Assembly: GCA_947568835.1 (NCBI GenBank)
Contig: OX387604.1
Location: 27,080,851-27,144,850 of the forward strand
Direction of reading: 5' to 3'
DNA length: 64,000 nucleotides
DNA from: Protonemura montana
Taxonomy: Eukaryota; Arthropoda; Insecta; Plecoptera; Nemouridae
Positions 1-53,200 of this stretch are shown here, piece by piece. Positions within the stretch are counted from its first letter, which is position 1; each line of letters starts with the position of its first letter. The notes under the pieces were generated by a model. It had not been told where the DNA came from, did not search any database, and saw nothing but the letters and a program-made list of their open reading frames with translations. The position numbers were made by a program, and so were the translations under genes.

Positions 1-40
1 TCTACTCATTGACCGACGCCATTCGACCAGTGCCGCATAG
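1..40 (+). mobile_element. 5S-SINE tail fragment
   Basis: The first 40 bases match the 3' body of the 5S-derived SINE seen at 36473-37068, in the segment just before its CATGACCAGATGTC tail (shared ACCAGTGCCGCAT). It is truncated at base 40, lies in an intron of the CD36-family gene, and stops about 30 bp from the exon 72-275 donor. The rest may lie to the left of the window. Confidence 0.6.
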
Positions 41-71: not shown

Positions 72-3000
72 CCCTATAAGCAGTCCCATCTGTTTCATGG
101 GTCGTCTATGCTTGGGATAGAACGTGTGAGCTAGGGCTGTCAGTTTATCATCATAACCAAACACCAACTCCTCGGCGGTCACGTGAACAAAGGGGCGTAA
201 CCCCAAGTTCCTCACTGCCATCGAAATCATCAGCTTGAGGAAGCGATTTAATGAGTTGCTCTGCGATGCTAAAGTCTGGGGAGAAATCAGTTTATTTCAC
301 GTATAAAAGCATTAAATTTTATTCATTTATTAACAAAATCTGTGTCGTTTGTTATTTAGTAATTGCAGGTGTGCATCCCATGTAATAGTGTATATAATAG
401 TGCCTATAATAGTGTATATAATAGTGCATATAATAGTGCCTATAATAGTGTATATAATAGTGCATATAATAGTGCCTATAATAGTGTATATAATAGTGCA
501 TATAATAGTGCATATAATAGTGCATATAATAGTGCATATAATAGTGCATATAATAGTGCATGTAATAGTGCATATAATAGTGCATATAATAGTGCATATA
601 ATAGTGCATATAATAGTGCATATAATAGTGCATATAATAGTGCATATAATAGTGCATATAATAGTGCATGTAATAGTGCATATAATAGTGCATATAATAG
701 TGCATATAATAGTGCATGTAATAGTGCATATAATAGTGCATATAATAGTGCATATAATAGTGCATATAATAGTGCATATAATAGTGCATATAATAGTGCA
801 TATAATAGTGCATATAATAGTGCATATAATAGTGCATATAATAGTGCATGTAATAGTGCATATAATAGTGCATATAAAAGTGCATATAATAGTGCATATA
901 ATAGTGCATATAATAGTGCATGTAATAGTGCATATAATAGTGCATATAATAGTGCATATAATAGTGCATATAAAAGTGCATATAATAGTGCATATAATAG
1001 TGCATATAATAGTGCATATAATAGTGCATATAATAGTGCATATAATAGTGCATGTAATAGTGCATATAATAGTGCATGTAATAGTGCATATAATAGTGCA
1101 TATAATAGTGCATATAATAGTGCATGTAACTACTTACCAGCAGTGGAATATTAGGTACAGTTAGTTTCAAAGATTTGTCCACTGAAAGCTCGGGAACAAA
1201 GTTAAGTATTTTGTTGTGTTGGTAGCTGACAGTTCCATTGTTGTGAAACTTGACGTTCACTTTCTCCATATCCTCCCTGAAAACATTAACATTAAACATT
1301 TGAACTCCCCCTGAAAACATTAACATGTAAACACTTGAACTCCCCCTGAAAACATTAACATGTAAACACTTGAACTCCCCCTGAAAACATTAACATTTCA
1401 ACACTTGAACTCCCCCTGAAAACATTAACATGTAAACACTTGAACTCCCCCTGAAAACATTAACATGTAAACACTTGAACTCCCCCTGAAAACATTAACA
1501 TTTCAACACTTGAACTCCCCCTGAAAACATTAACATGTAAACACTTGAACTCCCCCTGAAAACATTAACATGTAAACACTTGAACTCCCCCTGAAAACAT
1601 TAACATTAACACTTGAACTCCCCCTGAAAACATTAACATTTCAACACTTGAACTCCCCCTGAAAACATTAACATGTAAACACTTGAACTCCCCCTGAAAA
1701 CATTAACATTGAACATTTGAACTCCCCCTGAAAACATTAACATTTCAACACTTGAACTCCCCCTGAAAACATTAACATGTAAACACTTGAACTCCCCCTG
1801 AAAACATTAACATGTAACACTTGAACTCCCCCTGAAAACATTAACATTGAACATTTGAACTCCCCCTGAAAACATTAACATTAACACTTGAACTCCCCCT
1901 GAAAACATTAACATTAAACACTTGAACTCCCCCTGAAAACATTAACATGTAAACACTTGAACTCCCCCTGAAAACATTAACATGTAAACACTTGAACTCC
2001 CCCTGAAAACATTAACATGTAAACACTTGAACTCCCCCTGAAAACATTAACATGTAAACACTTGAACTCCCCCTGAAAACATTTACATTAAACAATTGAA
2101 CTCCCCCTGAAAACATTTACATTAAACAATTGAACTCCCCCTGAAAACATTAACATGTAAACACTTGAACTCCCCCTGAAAACATTAACATGTAACACTT
2201 GAACTCCCCCTGAAAACATTAACATTGAACATTTGAACTCCCCCTGAAAACATTAACATTAACACTTGAACTCCCCCTGAAAACATTAACATTAAACACT
2301 TGAACTCCCCCTGAAAACATTAACATGTAAACACTTGAACTCCCCCTGAAAACATTAACATGTAAACACTTGAACTCCCCCTGAAAACATTAACATGTAA
2401 ACACTTGAACTCCCCCTGAAAACATTAACATGTAAACACTTGAACTCCCCCTGAAAACATTTACATTAAACAATTGAACTCCCCCTGAAAACATTTACAT
2501 TAAACAATTGAACTCCCCCTGAAAACATTTACATTAAACAATTGAACTCCCCCTGAAAACACCTCCAATACAATATCTCCAATATCTCCAATATCTCCAA
2601 TATCTCCAATATCTCCAATATCTCCAATATCTGCAATATCTCCAATATTCGTAACATCGGGTAATGAGGTTGAATACGCAATTGCAAAATAAAAAAGAAA
2701 TTGCAGGGAAATTTGTCGATGTTTTTATGAACTTGACTTGACATGAATTAAAGTTTCTACTCAAACAGGACGTGGTTTTAAGCTGATTTTTTGTGAAATA
2801 TAAGAAATAAATAAATAAAGAAATGTTTGACGATTTTTAAACATACATTTTGTAAGAATAAAAGAACGTGTCGTACATTGCGTACATTGCGTACATTGCG
2901 TGCATTGCTTACATTGCGTACATTGCGTACATTGCGTACATTGCGTACATTGCGTACATTCTGTTTTACGCAAACTACTTTTTGATGTGATTTTTTTTGG

Positions 3001-6000
3001 CGCGAAGAAAGTGTCGAAGTCACTGGTTTAGATGAATTCAATGTCAAGAATGAAATGAATGACAGAGCAACACAAGGAACATTCAAACCATGATGAAGCA
3101 CAATTACAGAATGACGAGACCTTGAAAATATTGATGCTCACTCACCTGTATACATACGGACCAACTTCAACAAGCTTTGGTTTTTCCCCAAAATTGAGAA
3201 AATTCTCTGCGTTCGTCACATTGAATATGTAGACTTTGGTGAGTCTGATGACTCCTGGTCTTTGCCAGTAGTGGTAACTCAACGATCCATTTATTACTCT
3301 AAGATGCTGTGGAAATAAAATACAAGATAAATACTCAGACATTGCTTTATAAGATAGCAGAATTGAGAAGCTCTGTCAGGCGATCTCAGCACCTCCATGG
3401 CTACCAAATGTTGAATCTACCATTGAACCTCCTATGCTAGGCCATGATATACCCGTGGTTACATCAGATAGCAGAATTGAGAAGCTCTGTCAGGCGATCT
3501 CAGCACCTCCATGGCTACCAAACGTTGAATCTACCATTGAACCTCCTATGCTAGGTCATGATATACCCGTGGTAACATAAGATAGCAGAATTGAGAAGCT
3601 CTGTCAGGCGATCTCAGCATCTCCATGGCTACCAAATGTTGAATCTACCATTGAACCTCCTATGCTAGGTCATGATATACCCGTGGTAACATAAGATAGC
3701 AGAATTGAGAAGCTCTGTCAGGCGATCTCAGCATCTCCATGGCTACCAAATGTTGAATCTACCATTGAACCTCCTATGCTAGGCCATGATATACCCGTGG
3801 TAACATAAGATAGCAGAATTGAGAAGCTCTGTCAGGCGATCTCAGCATCTCCATGGCTACCAAATGTTGAATCTACCATTGAACCTCCTATGCTAGGCCA
3901 TGATATACCCGTGGTAACATAAGATAGCAGAATTGAGAAGCTCTGTCAGGCGATCTCAGCATCTCCATGGCTACTAAACGTTGAATCTACCATTGAACCT
4001 CCTATGCTAGGCCATGATATACCCGTGGTAACATAAGATAGCAGAATTGAGAAGCTCTGTCAGGCGATCTCAGCACCTCCATGGCTACCAAACGTTGAAT
4101 CTACCATTGAACCTCCTATGCTAGGCCATGATATACCCGTGGTAACATAAGATAGCAGGATTGAGAAGCTCTGTCAGGCGATCTCAGCATCTCCATGGCT
4201 ACTAAACGTTGAATCTACCATTGAACCTCCTATGCTAGGCCATGATATACCCGTGGTAACATAAGATAGCAGAATTGAGAAGCTCTGTCAGGCGATCTCA
4301 GCATCTCCATGGCTACCAAATGTTGAATCTAACAATCATACTCGTTTGTCTTACAATAATGTTATGTTTTGGAAGTTGGTAACGAAAAATGGTTTCTTGG
4401 AAAATGTCATGTGAACGTCTCGAAGTAGGTTTTATCAGCGCTGTACGAACCAACACTTATTATTTTCTTATTCTTTCGAGGACTTGCGATTATCGCAGCA
4501 AGTTGAAAGGTTGAATAATATACCTAAATTGCTAGAGATTATTTTGTTACGTTTATCGCCTACAAGTTATTTCAGTGTGAAAGCGATTGAATTTAAAGAT
4601 GCACCTCTTGAAGACACATGCCCATGTAATGACGTTTCATACTGAGATATTTAAGAAGAGTTAAGAGTTTAGAATTTGTTGCATCACTTTAAACAAGAAG
4701 ATTCGCAGGAAGGAACGTGTCTTGAGAGGTGCTAAAAATGACCTTTGAGTTGGCATGCCTTCAAGCAACAAAAAAAAATGTGTCTTTGTCAAGCACAGGT
4801 AATTGGTTTGCACATGGCTTGGTTGTTGGTACTCACTTTTAAAATGATATAATCCGCCCATGGTATGGATGATAAAATAATTCCAATTGCTAATGTGAAT
4901 AATCCGAAACATAGCACAGCGAGCCGAGCTGAAACAAAAAGAAAATAAGCGATTAGTAATGACTCAAAGTATAAGAAGTAACATCAAGATATATGTGGGT
5001 CAGTAACATGACGTGAAATATGCGTGAAATACGCGTGAAATATGCGGACACGGATGTTTAGTCCTTGTCCACCATTTTGACTGATTACATGACAGCAAAC
5101 TTGGACCGAACTAAGACTAGGACCGGATGAATGCCAGTCATCTTAAAGCATCGCTGTTTCGTCAGGTACAGATATTAGGCAAAGACTTTCCCAAACATGT
5201 CATAACATTGTGTACCATTGATAGGTGACGACCACTTTCTTATATTAATAACATGCTCGTGGATAGATTTGTCTGCATTTAATGTAATCAAGGTTATGTT
5301 CGAAATATTCAAACAACCAGTGACAGTTGTTTAAATGTAACGGTTATTTGAAATGAATAGAAAGGGGAAGTTATGCCGCATTGTGTATTGCATTGTGGGT
5401 TTTTTTGTCTTGATTATCTCATAATCGATGATTAATCATGAGTTTTGTTTTCTCGAGTCGCTGGCTTCACTTTCGATTGTCCATTTCAAGTGCGAGTCTC
5501 GATGTTGTTTAGTAAAATCTAGGTCATTATCTCATCGCATAAAAACTGCTGGCAATGTTGCTAAAAAAACAACTCGTTTCATTCACTGACTTGTTCAGAA
5601 ATAAGTGGACCAGCGCAGGAATTTGCATGTCATTTTTTTTTATCGATATTAGCAAATTCTTGTGTGTTGATCGATATCATCAACGTTTTCATCATTTTAT
5701 GCACAATTATTGATCGCAAAATATCGAAATGTACACATCCATTTGTTCAGGTCAAATAAATATTATAATGAGGCACACTAAATTATAATAATTGATACAA
5801 TTAAAACTGGTGATGTTGTTATCCTTGCAAATAGGTAAATACTTGATGAAGAAAAAAGTGACCTTCTTAAATTTATATCATTATTAGATATGTTTAGAAA
5901 CTTCTAAAAGTCTCCCAAAAGTGTCTCAAAAATGTGATATTAATATTGATGATCTATAATATTGTTATTATATTATTATATTATTATATTATTAGCTTGT

Positions 6001-9000
6001 AAGTTTGTATTGTATTATGATTGTTTAACACAAAGGTACATCGCGAGGTTTACGTTATTCTTATTTCGATAATTCTTCAAGACAGTAAATTAATTAGCAC
6101 GTGTTCTCAGTTTACTTCCGTGTAATCATGCTAAGATGTTGGACGTCAATGTGCGTGAGTTGCCGACAAAGCATTTGCGTGACGATACAGTTTTACCTCA
6201 CGCAATGCGAGGCTAAATCTGCTTGAATAATGAATATCAAACTCAATCATAGTTTCAACTCTTGAAATAAATTGCTCTAAAATCAACACAAATGATTCAC
6301 CACAGTAACATACTACACATACTGCACATACCGTATATACTATCAAATTTCAACTAAAAAACAATTTCAGGTTAGATCACCAAAGTTAAGCAACAATGCG
6401 CTGGGTCAGGTATTGGATGGGTGACCATCATACACATGACCAGTTCTGTTCGGGAGAGAGGTTGGAGGGATGAAAGTTAAGCAACACTGCGCTGGGTCAG
6501 GTATTGGATGGGTGACCATCATACACATGACCAGTTCTGTTCGGGAGAGAGGTTGGAGGAATAAAAGTTAAGCAACACTACGCTGAGTTAGGTATTGGAT
6601 GGGTGACCATCATACACATGACCAGTTCTGTTCGGGAGAGAGGTTGGAGGGATGAAAGTTAAGCAACACTGCGCTGGGTCAGGTATTGGATGGGTGACCA
6701 TCATACACATGACCAGTTCTGTTCGGGAGAGAGGTTGGAGGGATAAAAGTTAAGCAACACTGCACTAAGTCAGGTATCGGATGGGTGACCATCATACACA
6801 TGACCAGTTCTGTTCGGGAGAGAGGTTGGAGGGATGAAAGTTAAGCAACACTGCGCTGGGTCAGGTATTGGATGGGTGACCATCATACACATGACCATTT
6901 CTGTTCGGGAGAGAGGTTGGAGGGATAAAAGTTAAGCAACACTGCACTAAGTCAGGTATCGGATGGGTGACCATCATACACATGACCAGTTCTGTTCGGG
7001 AGAGAGGTTGGAGGGATGAAAGTTAAGCAACACTGCGCTGGGTCAGGTATTGGATGGGTGACCATCATACACATGACCAGTTCTGTTCGGGAGAGAGGTT
7101 GGAGGGATAAAAGTTAAGCAACACTGCACTAAGTCAGGTATCGGATGGGTGACCATCATACACATGACCAGTTCTGTTCGGGAGAGAGGTTGGAGGGATG
7201 AAAGTTAAGCAACACTGCGCTGGGTCAGGTATTGGATGGGTGACCATCATACACATGACCATTTCTGTTCGGGAGAGAGGTTGGAGGGATAAAAGTTAAG
7301 CAACACTGCGCTGATTCAGGTATTGAATGGGTGACTTTCATACGCATGGCCAGTTCTGTTCGGGAAAGAGGTTGGAGGGATGAAAGTTAGTACAGCAACT
7401 TCACTCGCCTTGCTTATCAACCTCTCTACAGAATGGATTTGTGGAGGAATCCTGTTGTTCGAGTTGTACCGTCCTTCGGAAGGGACGTTAAGCCGGTGGT
7501 CCTTTTGTTGCATTCAAGCTACCTGTTGGTCCCGGGTTTATCCTCCTCCCTTCTAGGCTAGGTTAGGCTCTTCATCTCTCCCATCATCACCTACTCATTA
7601 ACTCATGAAAGTGCGTCGTTAAACACCACAAATCAAGAAATATATCATAACTTAACCTGAAATTATTTCCAACTGTCGATGTTATTATTAAATAACAAAT
7701 AAATAAATAAACACTCGACTGCCGTGTAAACGCAATCAACAATAACATCTTCTGAGTTGTGTGATCTTTTGTTCGAAGCGTGTGTTTAGAAAGATGTGCA
7801 TGTGCATCACGATGACATTGCATCGATGCACATGGAAAGAAATGTTGAAAAAAATGCAGAAAATTGCAATAAGCTTGAATGCATGTGCATCAAACACAAT
7901 TGAAAGAAACTTTGGGTCAAGGACATGATTTTCTATGAGGTTAATTACTTGCATGAGAATAACGAGTAACCCAGACCCAGCTGATGAATTACTAGCATGA
8001 GAATAACGAGTAACCCAGGCCCAGCTGATGAATTACTAGCATGAGAATAACGAGTAACCCAGGCCCAGCTGATGAATTACTAGCATGAGAATAACGAGTA
8101 ACCCAGACCCAGCTGATGAATTACTAGCATGAGAATAACGAGTAACCCAGACCCAGCTGATGAATTACTAGCATGAGAATAACGAGTAACCCAGACCCAG
8201 CTGATGAATTACTAGCATGAGAATAACGAGTAACCCAGACCCAGCTAATGAATAACTAGCATGAGAATAACGAGTAACCCAGCTGATGAATTACTAGCAT
8301 GAGAATAACGAGTAACCCAGCTGATGAATTACTAGAATGAGAATAACGAGTAACCCAGACCCAGCTGATGAATTACTAGCATGAGAATAACGAGTAACCC
8401 AGACCCAGCTGATGAATTACTTGCATGAGAATAACGAGTAACCCAGACCCAGCTGATGAATTACTAGCATGAGAATAACGAGTAACCCAGACCCAGCTGA
8501 TGAATTACTAGCATGAGAATAACGAGTAACCCAGCTGATGAATTACTAGCATGAGAATAACGAGTAACCCAGACCCAGCTGATGAATTACTTGCATGAGA
8601 ATAACGAGTAACCCAGCTGATGAATTACTAGCATGAGAATAACGAGTAACCCAGACCCAGCTGATGAATTACTTGCATGAGAATAACGAGTAACCCAGCT
8701 GATGAATTACTAGCATGAGAATAACGAGTAACCCAGACCCAGCTGATGAATTACTAGCATAAGAATAACGAGTAACCCAGACCCAGCTGATGAATTACTT
8801 GCATGAGAATAACGAGTAACCCAGCTGATGAATTACTAGCATGAGAATAACGAGTAACCCAGACCCAGCTGATGAATTACTAGCATAAGAATAACGAGTA
8901 ACCCAGACCCAGCTGATGAATTACTAGCATGAGAATAACGAGTAACCCAGCTGATGAATTACTAGCATGAGAATAACGAGTAACCCAGACCCAGCTGATG

Positions 9001-12000: not shown

Positions 12001-15000
12001 CTTCGGAATCCACAATTTTACCGAACGTCTTGACCACGTGTTCTTGTCAGAAGTTGCAACTCAAGTTGTCTGCAATCTCTACTTTAGTTGCAACTCAAGT
12101 TGTCTGCAATCTCTACTTTAGTTGCAACTCAAGTTGTCTGCAATCTCTACTTTAGTTGCAACTCAAGTTGTCTGCAATCTCTACTTTAGTTGCAACTCAA
12201 GTTGTCTGCAATCTCTACTTTAGTTGCAACTCAAGTTGTCTGCAATCTCTACTTTAGTTGCAACTCAAGTTGTCTGCAATCTCTACTTTAGTTGCAACTC
12301 AAGTTGTCTGCAATCTCTACTTTAGTTGCAACTCAAGTTGTCTGCAATCTCTACTTTAGTTGCAACTCAAGTTGTCTGCAATCTCTACTTTAGTTGCAAC
12401 TCAAGTTGTCTGCAATCTCTACTTTAGTTGCAACTCAAGTTGTCTGCAATCTCTACTTTAGTTGCAACTCAAGTTGTCTGCAATCTCTACTTTAGTTGCA
12501 ACTCAAGTTGTCTGCAATCTCTACTTTAGTTGCAACTCAAGTTGTCTGCAATCTCTACTTTAGTTGCAACTCAAGTTGTCTGCAATCTCTACTTTAGTTG
12601 CAACTCAAGTTGTCTGCAATCTGATTATGTAATTTTTTCCAGGCTCTCTGCAGGATATTTTATTTATTTGTTGTGTTTAACTACGCACTGTTTTGACATC
12701 TGGCCATGCGGCACTGGTCTAATGGCGTCGGTGAATGAGTGGATGATGATGAGGATGATGATGAACCTAACCTAGCCTAGAAAGGAGGAGGGGAAACCCG
12801 GTGTCGCACGTAGCCTACTTCTGTCGAAGACCAAGGAGACCACCGGCTTAACGTCCCTTCCGAAGGACGGTACAACGCGAACAACAGGATTCCTCCACAA
12901 ATCCATGCTGTCGAGAGGTTGATAAGCAAGGCGAGTGAAGTTGCTGTACTAACTTTCATCCCTCCAACCTCTCTCCCGAACAGAACTGGTCATGTGTATG
13001 ATGATCACCCATCCAATACCTGACTCAGCGCAGTGTTGCTTAACTTTCATCCCTCCAACACCTCTCCCAAACAGAACTGGTCATATGTATGATGGTCACC
13101 CATCCAATACCTGACTCAGCGCAGTGTTGCTTAACTTTCATCCCTCCAACCTCTCTCCCGAACAGAACTGGTCATATGTATGATGGTCACCCATTCAATA
13201 CCCGACTCAGCGCAGTGTTGCTTAACTTCAGTGATCTAACGAGAACCTGTGTTTCCAACATGCCAAACCGTTCGGTCTCTTCAGGTTTAGTTCCGATCCT
13301 AGCCTCCAGGGGCAACCAACAGAAGGTCACAAGAGTTGTAGGTTTTCATCTCATCTGATAGTTAATTAGAAATATGCACAAAAAATCCGGAAGTAATTTT
13401 AAATCAAGCAACACGAGTAATTGATTTGAAAGATTGCGTGATATCGGTGTGCATTTCACAGTCGCCACTTTTTAGGTTAGGTTGACAAAACTTCGAAATA
13501 TTTGTATTTTGACCGTTGAAAAGTGAAATAAAGAAGTGAAGAGAAGAGAAGAATGATCTTAGACAATGATTCATTCTCCAAGAAGGTACAGTTTGCCACC
13601 AAACACTTAATGTCTGAGATATAATTAAGTTACATCATAGAAAGAATTATGAGTCAAATAACTTTTAATTCGTTTAGAAATAACGTGCATTCTACGAGTT
13701 GTACGATTTCAGGTAGAAAAAGTGCAGACATGAAGGGAAATCAGCAAAGCATTTCGTCCAGTAAATAAGTGTAGTGGATAATTACCGTGATACTGACTTC
13801 TATACCTTGCATTATCATTGTAATTATACTTCACTTGAGCTCCACGTGAGCTTCATTACAGCTTCATTACAGCTTCATTACAGCTTCATTACAGCTCCGA
13901 GGTATAATTAGCAGAAGTGATTGTTGCTTGATAAGCCACTAACAGTTCAAAAAGAAATGACAAAATGAAGAATTTGGCAAGTGTCGAATTGTAGGCAGTT
14001 TTATATTCTGGTCTTCAAACCAAAATGTGTCGCATGTGTTTCCGGAAATAGCAAATGGATGTCATGAATGTCATGGATGTCATGGATGTCATAGATGTCA
14101 TGAATGCCATGGATGTCATGGATGTCATGGATGTCATGGATGTCATGGATGTCATGGATGTCACGAATTTCATGTATGTCATGAATGTCATGGATGTCAT
14201 TAATGTCATTAATGTCATGAATGTCATGAATGTCATGAATGTCATTATTATTATTATTATTATTATTATTTGTGGTGTTTAACGACGCACTGTTTTGACA
14301 TCTGGTCATGCGGCACTGGTCTAATGGCGTCGGTGAATGAGTGGATGATGATGAGTATGATGATGAACCTAACCTAGCCTAGAAGGGAGGAGGGGAAACC
14401 CGGTGCCGGCACGTAGTCTACTCCTGTCGAAGACCAAGGGGACCACCGGCTTAACGTCCCTTCCGAAGGACGGTACAACGCGAACAACAGGATTCCTCCA
14501 CAAATCCATGCTGTCGAGAGGTTGATAAGCAAGGCGAGTGAAGTTGCTGTACTAACTTTCATCCCTCCAACCTCTCTCCCAAACAGAACTGATCATGAGT
14601 ATGATGGTCGACCATCCAATACCTGACTCAGCGCAGTGTTGCTTAACTTCGGTGATATTATGAGAACCGGTGTTTCCAACACGCATGAATGTCATGAATG
14701 TCGCTGATATCATGAAAGTCATGGATGTCATGAATGTCATGGATGTCAAATCATCACGATATCATGATTATAATTTTAGAATGTGTTTCTAATAATAAAA
14801 GAAAGTTTTGGGCATCGACCTTGAGGTGATTAAACCCGTTGAAAAGTTGTCCTGCAGAAATCAAGTTGTTGTTGTTTATGATGTTTAATTTGAATCCGGT
14901 CTGAAATCTTCCTACGTTTGCAGTGAATGATGACTAATTTTCTTGTAGGCTTGTGACCCTTCACAGTTTGCTTATCTAACAAATGCAACCTTGATTTGAA

Positions 15001-18000
15001 ATACCAAACTGGACGGCACAATTCTAGGCCAATGCTGACAAAATAAACACCTTGAAATGTATTATGAAATTTCTTAAAAACTTAATAAATAACCATCGCA
15101 TTTGAATAATTTCAGCAAAATAATCGCGAACTCGTCCGCGGGGTTCACGACGTTTGTCAAGTACGTGGAGTGCGATTCTTGCACAAGTTTTGAAAACTTG
15201 CATTTGCAAACTTCACGTGAATGAATCATGAATTATTTCCACACGGTTCTGGAGTTCAAAGTCACAAATGCTCGACCAGATTTTAGCATCTTTTTTCTAC
15301 GGATTTAAGATTGAGGTTAAATAATAGCAATAATTTCTGCCATCAAACGGATTATCATAAACGGAGATCTTTTTTTAAATGCCATCGCAGCCATGAACTG
15401 TTTTATAAATCGCACAAAACCTGCTCGGCATTTCATTACAAAACAGATGATTTTCATTGGAAAATATATTTTCCTGATTCTGAGTTCAAAACTGAATTAT
15501 TAATACCAGAAATCAACCCCCCTCCCCCCTCCCCCCTCCCCCCGTCCCAACAACCACAGGTCGGAGACAGGGGAAATTAAAACTTATTTTATTTATTTGT
15601 GGTGTTTAACTTAGCACTGTTTTGACATCTGGCCATGCGGCACTGGTCTAATGGCGTCGGTGAATGAGTGGATGATGATGAACCTAACCTAGCCTAGAAG
15701 GGAGGAGGGGAAACCCGGTGCCGGCACGGTAGCCTACTACTATCGAAGACTAAGGGGACCACCGGCTTAACGTCCCTTCCGAAGGACGGTACAACGTGAA
15801 CAACAGGATTCCTCCACAAATCCATGCTGTCGAGAGGTTGATAAGCAAGGCGAGTGAAGTTGCTGTACTAACTTTCATCCCTCCAACCTCTCTCCCGAAC
15901 AGAACTGGTCATGTGTATGATGGTCAACCATCCAATACCTGACTCAGCGCAGTGTTGCTTAACTTTCATCTCTCCAACCTCGCTCCCGAACAGAACTGGT
16001 CATGTGTATGATGGTCACCCATCCAATACCTGACTCAGCGCAGTGTTGCTTAACTTTCATCCCTTCAACCTCTCTCCCAAACAGAACTGGTCATGTGTAT
16101 GATAGTCACCAATCCAATACCTGACTCAGCGCAGTGTTGCTTAACTTTCATCCCTCCAACCTCTCTCCCAAACAGAACTGGTCATGTGTATGATGGTCAC
16201 CCATCCAATACCTGACCCAGCGCAGTGTTGCTTAACTTTCATCCCTCCAACCTCTCTCCCGAACAGAACTGGTCATGTGTATGATGGTCACCCATCCATT
16301 ACCTGACCCAGCGCAGTGTTGCTTAACTTTCATCCCTTCAACCTCTCTCCCAAACAGAACTGGTCATGTGTATGATGGTCACCCATCTAATACCTGACCC
16401 AGCGCAGTGTTGCTTAACTTTCATCCCTCCAACCTCTCTCCCGAACAGAACTGGTCATGTGTATGATGGTCACCCATCCAATACCTGACCCAGTGCAGTG
16501 TTGCTTAACTTAGGTGATCTAGGTTGAAACTTAACTGTACAAATAACACATGGTATTACATGGTATTACATGGTATTACATGGTATTACATGGTATTACA
16601 TGGTATTACAAGCTATTACGTAGGTTCAATCATGCAAGAGAGACAAAGATAATTGAAGACTTTTTGATAATGATTTGTTTTCTGAGGTATAAATATTTGT
16701 GGAAAGAATATTTTTCAAAATGCGACTTCAGCTTTCTCCATTTGTAACATTTGCTCGCATTAAAAACTACATCCAGTGCACTTTATAACGAAACAAAAAG
16801 TGCATTCATGTAACAGGTTTTGCTATTACGCTATTTGCACCACTGTCCACTTGCATTATACTATCCATGCAGAAATCATTACTGCATACTAATTAATTCT
16901 AATTAATTGCATTATAATTAAATGCATGGAGATTATTTCACTCATTCTAGAATTACAGCACAATGTTCAATTGCGTAAAATATTCTTTTTTCAAGAGTAA
17001 GTCGTTAAATCAAATGGAATCAAAGTAATCTAATGTTTATACCGAGATTGTGAAGAAACGGTATATCCCTCATGTCCCACATAGAGATGTTCTTCATCTA
17101 TGTAACATTAACACGTAGACTCAATGATAACAATAATATAAAGCTGATGAAAGTTGGTGTACTGAAACTTGCAAAGAGTCCCGATTTAGCATCGATTTCG
17201 TCGCCTAAATTAACCTAACCTAACCTAACCTAACCAAACCTAGCCAAACCTAACCTAACCTAACCTAGCCATACCTAACCATACCTAACCTAACCTAATC
17301 TAACCTGACCTAACCTAACCTAACCTAACCTAACCAAACCTAGCCCAACCTAACCTAACCTAACCGAACCTAATCCAACCTGACCTAACCTAACCTAACC
17401 TAACCTAGGCCCCGCATATCGCCCCGCAACTCGCGCTCCACATAACGGCCCGCACCACGGCCCGCACAACGGCCCGCACAACGGACCGCACCACAGCCCG
17501 CACAACGGCCCGCACCACAGCCAGCACAACGGACCGCAACACGGCCCGCAACATGGCCAGCACAACGGACCGCACAACGGACCGCACAACGGACCGCACC
17601 ACAGCCCGCACAACGGCCCACACAACGGCCCGCAACATGGCCCGCATAACGGCCCGCACAACGGCCATCACAACGGCCCGCACCACGCGCTCGGTCGAGT
17701 AAAGAATTAGAATGTTGCCTGCGGGGCTCTGGTCATTCACTTATCACAGCGCGACTCGACCTTGTGCAATCTTTTCATTCATGTTTCTCTCAGCTACAGA
17801 TCACCGCCATCTTTAATTTATCTTATTTTATTACAAAACTTTGAATTTGATTGACGAGCGATGACTCAGTTTTTTATCAGCTGTGACGATCGACCACTGA
17901 GTTCATTTTGATTTGCTTGACTTTTGCAGGTAATTTATTGCCGGTGTTGCATTTATGAAAATTCTACGTGCAAGAAATTATGCAATTAATTAATTCTATG

Positions 18001-36455: not shown

Positions 36456-36472
36456 ACCGAACGGTTTGTCGT

Positions 36473-37068
36473 GTTGGAAACACCGGTTCTCGTTAGGTCA
36501 CCGAAGTTAAGCAACACTGCGCTGGGTCAGGTATTGGATGCGTGACCAACATACACATGACCAGTTCTGTTCGGGAGAGAGGTTGGAGGGATGAAAGTTA
36601 AGCAACACTGCGCTGAGTCAGGTATTGGATGGGTGATCATCATACACATGACCAGTTCTGTTTGGGAGAGAGGTTGAAGGGATGAAAGTTAAGCAACACT
36701 GCGCTGAGTCAGGTATTGAATGGGTGACCATCATACACATGACCAGTTCTGTTCGGGAGGGAGGTTGGAGGGATGAAAGTTAGTACAGCAACTTCACTCG
36801 CCTTGCTTATCAACCTCTCGACAGCATGGATTTGTGGAGGAATCCTGTTGTTCACGTTGTACCGTCCTTCGAAAGGGACGTTACGCCGGTGGTCCCCTTA
36901 GTCTTCGACAGGAGTAGGCTACGTGTGACACCGGGTTTCCCCTCCTCCCTTCTAGACTAGGTTAGGTTCATCATCATCCTCATCATCATCCACTAATTCA
37001 CTGACGCTATTAGACCAGTGCCGCATGACCAGATGTCAAAACAGTGCGTCGTTAAACACCACAAATAA
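36473..37068 (+). mobile_element. 5S-rRNA-derived SINE, copy G, with 3 head units: best full-length copy
   Basis: It starts CCGAACGGTTTGTCGTGTTG, then GGAAACACCGGTTCTCGTTA and GTCACCGAAGTTAAGCAACA, close to animal 5S rRNA from about base 15 to base 85. Three heads start near 36504, 36595 and 36686. The body starts with CAGCAACTTCACTCGCC. The tail ends GTCGTTAAACACCACAAATA. CATTGAAC occurs on both sides (just before 36473 and just after 37068), a likely target duplication. Confidence 0.9.
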
Positions 37069-46599: not shown

Positions 46600-47092
46600 A
46601 AGTCAATTCCCGGTACCAAAGCACCAATACAAAACTAGAAACAAAGGAAACTTTCAAATTGAACCAGAAAATAGAACTGAAATGAGAAATCAGGCGAAAC
46701 AACAAGGAATGAGACTCTTCAATATGCTACCGGAACCTGACCTGCAAAGAACCTGACCTGCAAAGAACCTGACCTGCAAAGAACCTGACCTGCAAAGAAC
46801 CTGACCTGCAAAGAACCTGACCTGCAAAGAACCTGACCTGCAAAGAACCTGACCTGCAAAGAACCTGACCTGCAAAGAACCTGACCTGCAAAGAACCTGA
46901 CCTGCAAAGAACCTGACCTGCAAAGAACCTGACCTGCAAAGAACCTGACCTGCAAAGAACCTGACCTGCAAAGAACCTGACCTGCAAAGAACCTGACCTG
47001 CAAAGAACCTGACCGTACACAAATTTCAAACAAGTCTAAAAAATGTATTAATTGATCTAGAATTGTGAATTGTGTTGAGTGTTTCTGCCAGA
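46600..47092 (+). mobile_element. LINE 3' fragment, split by a 16-bp array
   Basis: Before the array the plus strand reads KTRNKGNFQI, then NRTEM and GMRLFNMLPE. After it, in another frame, it reads VHKFQTSLKNVLIDLEL then stop. This matches the C-terminal segment after the reverse transcriptase of Jockey/CR1-like LINEs. The LINE at 55.2 kb has KTRTKGNF and AKLYNALP at the same place, so the two are related. The 16-bp array (separate entry) sits between the two parts and shifts the frame. The 5' part is missing. Confidence 0.55.
46736..47013. repeat. 16-bp array (GACCTGCAAAGAACCT)n, 17 identical copies
   Basis: All units appear identical, so this is one of the youngest arrays here. It lies within the coding remnant of a LINE. 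Confidence 0.97.
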
Positions 47093-50290: not shown

Positions 50291-53200
50291 ACTTCTTGCA
50301 AGGGTACATGGAGTTGAGTTTCTGGATGTCTTTGGGACTCAGTCCAACGCGCTGGCCAATTGTTGCGTTGGGATCCTGCAAATAAAATCAGTCAAATTCC
50401 AGTCATGTGATTCAAGTCATAAACTGGTGATGAACTGGTGATGAACTGGTGATGAACTGGTGATGAACTGGTGATGAACTGGTGATGAACTGGTGATGAA
50501 CTGGTGATGAACTGGTGATGAACTGGTGATGAACTGGGGACGAACTAGTGCTTACTGTGGGAACGATTGTTGGCAGACCGTTGCTAGAAAAGGCGAGCTC
50601 GCTGTAGTGCATAACGCTGTTGTAATCATACACAACACCGAAGTCAGTTATCACCGAGGCTGGATACTTGTTGAAATTATTTTCAGTTCCTGCAATCAAA
50701 AGTAAGAACTTGTCTTATCAGTGCAGGTGCAGGTGCAGGTGCAGGTGCAGGTGCAGGTGCAGGTGCGGGTGTGGGTGCGGGTGCAGGTGCAGGTGCAGGT
50801 GCAGGTGCGGGTGTGGGTGTGGGTGTGGGTGCGGGTGCAGGTGCGGGTGTGGGTGTGGGTGCGGGTGCAGGTGCAGGTGCAGGTGTGGGTGCAGGTGCAG
50901 GTGCGGGTGTGGGTGTGGGTGTGGGTGTGGGTGTGGGTGCAGGTGCGGGTGCAGGTGCGGGTGCAGATAAAGGTTTGGATCGTTTTGAAACTTTTATTCT
51001 CAATCCCTATGATTTTGAGAGGGACAGAGTGGTTTCTTGGATGTTCTGCTTGGATGTTCTACTAGGAGGGGAGGGGTGGGGAGGGATGGTCTCTCGGATG
51101 AGTCACCTGCTTGGATGTTCTACTAGGAGGGGAGGGGTGGGGAGGGATGGTCTCTCGGATGAGTCACCTGCTTGGGTGTTCTACTAGGAGGGGAGGGGTG
51201 GGGAGGGATGGTCTCTCGGATGAGTCACCTGCTTGGATGTTCTATTAGGAGGGGAGGGGTGAGGAGGGATGGTCTCTCGGATGAGTCACCTGCTTGGATG
51301 TTCTACTAGGAGGGGAGGGATGGGGAGGGATGGTCTCTCGGATGAGTCACCTGCTTGGATGTTCTCGAAGTGGATGGTTACGAAGTTATCACGATCAGTG
51401 GCGCTCTGTTGATGGTAGAATCCGAGTGCGTGTAAAAGTTCGTGCATAATTGTCCCGTGTCTGAAGCAACCGGAGCCCGGCGTATTATAAGCCAGGTTCA
51501 GCACTTGTCGCTGAAACACATATAAGCCAGGTGTAATATAAGCAATCTGTATAATAAGATTGGCTTATTATAAGCCAGGTGTATTATAAGCCAGGTTCAG
51601 CACTTGTCGCTGAAACACATATAAGCCAGGTGTAATATAAGCCATATGTATAATAAGCTTGGCTTATTATAAGCCAGGTGTATTATAAGCCAGGTGTAAT
51701 ATAAGCCAGGTGTAATATAAGCTTGGCTTATTATAAGCCAGGTGTATTATAAGCCAGGTGTAATATAAGCCAGGTGTATTATAAGCCATGTGTATAATAA
51801 GCTTGGCTTATTATAAGCCATGTGTAATAAAGGCCAGGTGTAATATAAGCCAGGTGTATTATAAGCCAGGTGTATTATAAGCTTGGCTTATTATAAGCCA
51901 GGTGTAATAAAGGCCAGGTGTAATATAAGCCAGGTGTATTATAAGCCAGGTGTATTATAAGCTTGGCTTATTATAAGCCAGTTATTTTCTTACCCCTCCT
52001 GAGCGTCCAACATTTGAGTAGCATCCCGATGCACTGCCTTGGATAAGAACGTAGTCCCTGTCAGCTGTTTCTCGAGGTCGCATGCTAACGCATGTTTTAG
52101 CAGCGTAATCAGCAAACGCTGCTTGGATCGCTGTTACCTGAGCAGCATCTGAAATTAGTTTTAAATCAGTTTTATATTGGTTTTAAATCTTGTATTTTAT
52201 ATTGCAATAAAACTAATCTTGTCATGCTATGTTGAAGTGATTGAATATGTGGTAACACTCAGCAACAGTAGGAGAGGAGGGGTCTAGTTGTCTCAAAATC
52301 TATCTATGTGTGCATATCTTCTAGAAAAATGAAGTTATTCTTGTGTTATATTTTATTTATTAATTAATACACATTTGGTTATAATGTGAATTTTTTTGCA
52401 ATTTATTAGATCGTCAGTTGAATTGCTATGTCTCTTCGTTGACCTGTAAATGTTTCAGACTTTTAACCCCACGTGTGGGTGGAGTTGTCTCACACACTGA
52501 GGCTAGTTGTCTCAGTGAGAAATTTCGTCATGTGATCACATAATTTATTTAATTAAAATCTGCATCAGTTACTTTATGACAATACCGAGTCAATGTTCAA
52601 TAATTTATGTCAAAATATTTTGCCACTTTTTCCTGCAACACAAATTGAGCAGCGCGTAACATGACATCGGGTGCTACCAGCCCCCGAACTCGTTATAAAC
52701 TCGTAATTGGCAAATTTTTGTAAATTGGTTCTGTAAATTTGTAAAAATAATCAATTACTTACAAAACAAACAAAATGAACTTAAACTGAAAGCTACTTCT
52801 GGGGTTATGTCATTCTGTGACAGCTAGACCCATCATAGACTTTCAGCTTTACATTTAAAATTAATATACATCTCGTGCATATATTCATCATATAAGAAAA
52901 ATTATAAACAGGCAATATGTTTGCTGAAAAGAAAATAAATATGCACATTCAATTAGATGGATATTTTTACGTAAAATACGAAATAACTTAGCAGCAGAAA
53001 AGTTACTAACCACCTGTCAAAACAAACAATCTCTTCCAGAAGTGTGAATTATGCACCGAAACGAATGACATTTTCAGAATAGTAAAATATTTAGACGTCG
53101 AAGCAGCCAGGATCAGTATTTTGCCTCTGGTACCATTTGGAGTGGAGATTTTAAGTTTTAACACTGAGACAACTTGCCCCTGAGACTTTTAGACCCCTCC

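Follow-up and report, generated by a model that had tools for sequence, protein, structure and literature searches.

The window analyzed here (the whole stretch of 64,000 nucleotides, positions being counted from its first letter) carries on its minus strand four exons of a CD36-family gene. In the order of the gene these are: an upstream exon with an N-terminal membrane segment (4837..4928), placed by its splice signals, its reading frame and the match obtained after joining, and lacking a Pfam match by itself; a 161-nt CD36 exon (3146..3306) ending with TACAG/GTGAGT in phase 2; a 139-nt CD36 exon (1138..1276), the acceptor of which is the last unit of a tandem array and the donor of which is GTAAGT; and a 204-nt exon (72..275, CD36 profile positions 134–203) with a plausible donor, G/GTAACA. 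A dispersed repeat, found at 37 other places among 40 scored matches, covers window positions 1–38 and slightly more, within about 35 nt behind the last of these exons. Joined together, the four exons form a single open frame, their splice signals being canonical or plausible, and match the Pfam CD36 profile (E 6.3e-55, profile positions 2–201 of 463) as well as PDB chains of LIMP2 (E about 3e-23). The LIMP2 alignment runs ungapped across the junction of the array-bearing intron (EVGPYTYREL on the LIMP2 side), which, by homology, places the start of the 139-nt exon at 1276 in phase 2. An acceptor precedes the exon at 4837..4928, which is, therefore, probably not the first of the gene; the array-adjoining exon, named exon 3 in a sequence-only reading of this DNA and indeed the third CD36 exon seen in the window, may be number 4.

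Tandem arrays are abundant around these exons. A 35-bp array (1277..2561, minus strand), the subject of this analysis, ends in the acceptor of the 139-nt exon, and a 9-bp array (2571..2648, minus strand) lies just past its distal end. On the other side of the same exon, which is thus flanked by two arrays, a 12-bp array of 62.6 copies (379..1129, minus strand) starts 8 nt after the donor; its consensus unit has no GT on the minus strand and, therefore, does not copy the donor. The preceding intron contains a 114-bp array of 8.6 copies (3349..4331, minus strand), its end lying 42 nt short of the acceptor at 3306. Elsewhere in the window, 91-bp tandem arrays (6382–7389, 12950–13228, 15869–16511 and 36504–36782) resemble part of 5S rRNA by eye, with Rfam 5S matches at 13156–13276, 14578–14696 and 36456–36576. 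A 16-bp array of 17.6 copies of TTTGCAGGTCAGGTTC at 46733–47014 (minus strand) has an acceptor-like site followed by GT in each unit, and a minus-strand reading frame at 51985–52182 matches astacin peptidases (E 6e-9).

For comparison within the genome we have used 47 CD36-family introns (two of them from the array-bearing gene), the borders of which were modelled by script, without RNA, from profile hits and splice signals, after removal of hit pairs with profile gaps or overlaps. In our gene, the two introns scored consist of arrays to 78% and 86% vs. 17% over all 47, both introns of the gene included (the length used for the intron before exon 275-72 is 7 too long, since by frame its acceptor lies before 275). 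This excess is one of the observations behind a reading that we hold possible, if doubtful, and that is compatible with the near-neutral origin proposed below, namely that the locus is a relic, an unneeded 5′ fragment of a CD36 gene, the introns of which filled with arrays for want of restraint. The search for a 3′ part of the gene points in the same direction: tblastn with paralog exons (E up to 0.01) revealed no exon for profile positions 203–463 in the 20 kb to the left of the last exon, and when the C-terminal half of one paralog was matched to the genome, all 29 hits fell outside this locus, which, therefore, may be the 5′ part of a CD36 gene. Against the relic reading stand the single open frame, the splice signals and the strength of the CD36 match, on the basis of which the locus may be young or still transcribed; moreover, the failure to find the C-terminal exons could be due to an intron of greater length, a fault in the assembly or a search miss, and tandem repeats make up 56% of all window bases, so that array-filled introns are ordinary there.

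Anatomy of the 35-bp array and properties of its acceptor copies

The array consists of 37 head-to-tail units of 33–35 bp (21 of 35 bp, 13 of 34 bp and three of 33 bp), which sort into eight sequence types; TRF reports it at 1275–2561 with a period of 35, 37.3 copies, 96% matches and a score of 2266. Every unit closes with the acceptor ATGTTTTCAG, followed by GG. The motif TTTTCAG is found in register 38 times on the minus strand, once at the distal edge (2553) and once at the close of each unit, having been kept in 37/37 of them. The copy closing the last unit, at the proximal end of the array (1277), is the real acceptor, and upstream of it lie 37 decoy acceptors, the distal-edge copy included. 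The sequence-only reading had described an array with an acceptor in each of about 36 units at 1277–2562; the register is as described, the count and the far border becoming 37 and 2561. It had also taken the units to be identical to the real acceptor, which is true of the common end AATGTTTTCAG (37/37 units, then GG) and less so farther out, where 32/37 units end with TTAATGTTTTCAG and 5/37 with GTAAATGTTTTCAG. With this GG included, the exon reads GGAGG vs. GGGGAG in the units.

Two blocks of 11 nt, one on each side of the junction (AATGTTTTCAG and GGGGAGTTCAA), are unvarying in all 37 units, and variation is confined to the letters between them. In the order of unit types an 11-unit block, BBAAAAFDEGA, appears twice in succession, which is the mark of block amplification; the last unit, at the real acceptor, is of a singleton type, and the distal edge opens with three like units. 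Such a singleton is as expected of an array edge, and a homogenised interior with a divergent edge unit fits the pattern of a mirage minisatellite (see below). The anatomy as a whole is a real, exact and striking structure. A mobile, introner-like unit was considered as its source and ruled out: across the 258-Mb genome (34 contigs, the window being C16:27080851-27144850), the 19-mer GTTTTCAGGGGGAGTTCAA is matched exactly 37 times, always inside the array, and at one other place with two mismatches. The exon sequence common to the unit amounts to GG, local similarity between unit and exon beyond it being no better than that of shuffled sequences (p 0.28).

Acceptor strength was scored with a matrix built on 45 acceptors of CD36 paralogs, again at script-modelled borders without RNA. 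At 10.2 bits the real acceptor is the best of the 123 AGs scored in the intron and close to the family median (10.18), and the 37 decoys reach 7.75–9.05 bits. As 34/45 family acceptors score 7.75 bits or above, the decoys can be regarded as plausible, slightly weaker acceptors, in agreement with the dozens of near-equivalent sites that the sequence-only reading had envisaged. Its further expectation, that use of an upstream unit would usually break the frame, is borne out as well: when the preceding exon is read on via the upstream acceptors, a stop precedes the end of the exon in 36/37 cases, the sole exception being the acceptor at 1346, use of which would add 69 nt in frame. Cryptic exons within the array were ruled out, the best internal GT scoring 4.5 vs. 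a family median of 8.5 for donors and 11.3 for the real donor.

These properties bring to mind a regulatory array, in which decoys would compete with the real acceptor, length would set how much of the mRNA is unproductive or skips the 139-nt exon, and copy number would tune expression. The stops reached from nearly all decoys and the invariance around the junction are consistent with it. A precedent is the human ABCA7 intron 18 VNTR with its 25-bp unit, the first two bases of which are the exon 18 donor: in the consulted parts of the report, splicing can take place at the donor of a unit, with loss of the frame; one unit is retained in an isoform that apparently accounts for 2 ± 1% of transcripts, and exon 19 is skipped more often the longer the VNTR, while unit retention did not vary with that length (PMC5954066). 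The ABCA7 array, as described in those parts, is a donor-side case with measured RNA, whereas ours is an acceptor-side case read from DNA. Since the 22-nt invariance rests on eight unit types and few independent changes, and since a possibly incomplete gene, present perhaps as its 5′ part only, weakens the case further, we consider regulation by the array unlikely. Its most specific form appears highly improbable to us: a copy-number dial, in which the 37 decoys share out the spliceosome, a likely unstable array length sets the amount of in-frame mRNA, and the 22 junction nucleotides are invariant for this purpose. If it were true, splicing in this genome would be subject to a general and rapidly changing level of control by such arrays.

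Age of the exon border and other junction arrays

All nine comparable paralogs have an intron at the identical codon and in phase 2; in no case is the junction repeated at the corresponding acceptor or a tandem repeat present within 400 nt of it. Three further paralogs were left out of this comparison, C16:12212587 because it was matched straight through with three internal stop codons, and C5:4887052 and C16:18717419 because they lack a hit to the next exon. Since nine paralogs share the codon and phase of this intron while having no acceptor array, the splice border is old, and the array was added later and locally. Of the two origins offered in the sequence-only reading, growth of the array out of the splice site is thus the better fit, and a border kept in register by the array is not needed. 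For the same reason, creation of the border by the array was ruled out.

Splice boundaries duplicated in tandem have been described before as a class, of which the 35-bp array is a large example. A human minisatellite described by Turri in 1995, said to belong to the gene 6-16/IFI6, reportedly provides multiple splice donors, to go by the title of that work; so far as the title tells, it is a donor-side case, whereas ours is at the acceptor. The closest known relatives are the amphioxus “mirage” minisatellites of the globins BflGb6 and BflGb9 and of Adh3, in which, according to the accessible portions of two reports, the tandem repeats include the intron/exon boundary, at donors or acceptors, and the splice signal is kept in many units (PMC3087553, PMC3902484). 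On the basis of globin RT-PCR and earlier Adh3 data, the authors suggest in the portion consulted that regular splicing is undisturbed (PMC3087553); a lack of interference with it is likewise suggested for Adh and TnC in the corresponding part of the second report, which adds PGBD5 as a further mirage case (PMC3902484). The units given there measure 10–72 bp in the Adh3 mirage and 150–160 bp in BflGb6, with six and three copies (PMC3087553, PMC3902484). As far as these excerpts allow a comparison, the 35-bp array resembles the mirages in holding the boundary within the repeat, in keeping the splice signals and in a unit length within the published Adh3 range, and differs from BflGb6 in its 37 units, which hold next to no exon sequence. 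Human segmental duplications, too, are described in the part consulted as having internal tandem repeats at exon-intron boundaries, with possible changes in splicing (PMC2812944); there they are tied to novel introns, whereas the intron of the 35-bp array is old. An acceptor-side array of comparable size was not found described in the literature searched, mostly outside subscription papers.

The array is not a singular case within the genome either. Tandem repeats occur in 20 of the 47 modelled introns (32 arrays in total), and three of the arrays span a junction: the 35-bp array and those of two CD36 paralogs, C16:19057641 and C5:4881429. The former paralog (reverse strand) has a donor-side array of 44.7 copies of a 46-bp unit that comprises the final 27 nt of the coding exon together with the donor; counting the real one, there are 45 copies of the junction, with GTAGGT in 41/45, and this array is a textbook donor-side mirage. 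In the latter, a two-copy duplication of 178 bp lies over the acceptor, with 174/178 positions identical, and is possibly a young case.

Whether three junction-spanning arrays exceed expectation depends on the null. When the seed unit may fall anywhere in an intron (uniform seeding), 1.03 such arrays are expected vs. three seen (Poisson 0.085); without the 35-bp array, which had been chosen beforehand, two are seen with a probability of about 0.27. When finished arrays are placed at random, 0.38 contacts within 5 bp of a junction are expected, the probability of three or more being 0.007 and, without the 35-bp array, that of two or more being 0.057 (under the 5-bp limit the 12-bp array, 8 nt behind its donor, stays outside the contact count). 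A growth mechanism specific to junctions is, therefore, rejected under uniform seeding, while random placement shows an excess, which makes this verdict model-dependent; as we have chosen to take the seed model for the fairer null, no junction-specific mechanism is called for. The abundance of arrays and the expected numbers under either null also speak for chance contact, in which a minisatellite of the common intronic sort would end at the acceptor by accident. The low random-placement probabilities speak against it, as do the exact register of the 35-bp array with the true acceptor and the rarity of acceptor-like units, a site of this kind being present in at least half of the units in just 2 of the 58 non-overlapping window arrays with at least five copies, the 35-bp array included. 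Such content is unusual among the arrays of the window, and chance contact seems to us improbable.

Proposed origin and its meaning

We consider it likely that the 35-bp array is a near-neutral minisatellite of the mirage type that was seeded across an old acceptor and is spliced mostly at its last unit. Its growth would have begun with the tandem duplication of a stretch of about 35 bp reaching from the end of the old intron just into the exon, the duplicate then being amplified via unequal exchange or slippage. Because the duplicated stretch would have run from intron into exon, every unit would have come to carry an acceptor, with the outermost copy as the real one. The array would be tolerated because the spliceosome mostly picks the last unit, which is presumably favored both because no other unit lies closer to the donor of the exon (exon definition) and because its acceptor scores best. 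Upstream acceptors are expected to be used to a small extent, and almost every such use would lead to a stop and, thus, to lost or decayed mRNA.

Several points temper this near-neutral origin. If the gene is incomplete, the choice of acceptor may not matter. Since similarity between unit and exon past the shared GG is no better than in shuffles, a duplication of exon sequence proper does not appear to be supported. As human ABCA7 shows, arrays of such kind can affect splicing.

The acceptor array, the donor array and the two-copy case suggest that, in this one genome, splice-site minisatellites recur within a single gene family, and with three CD36-family cases side by side the origin of such arrays could be followed at several ages. 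If the host is not a lancelet, the mirage phenomenon would be extended beyond lancelets. The array itself is a natural experiment on the choice of a single acceptor from 38 near-identical ones and on the extent to which exon definition prevails over first-AG scanning.
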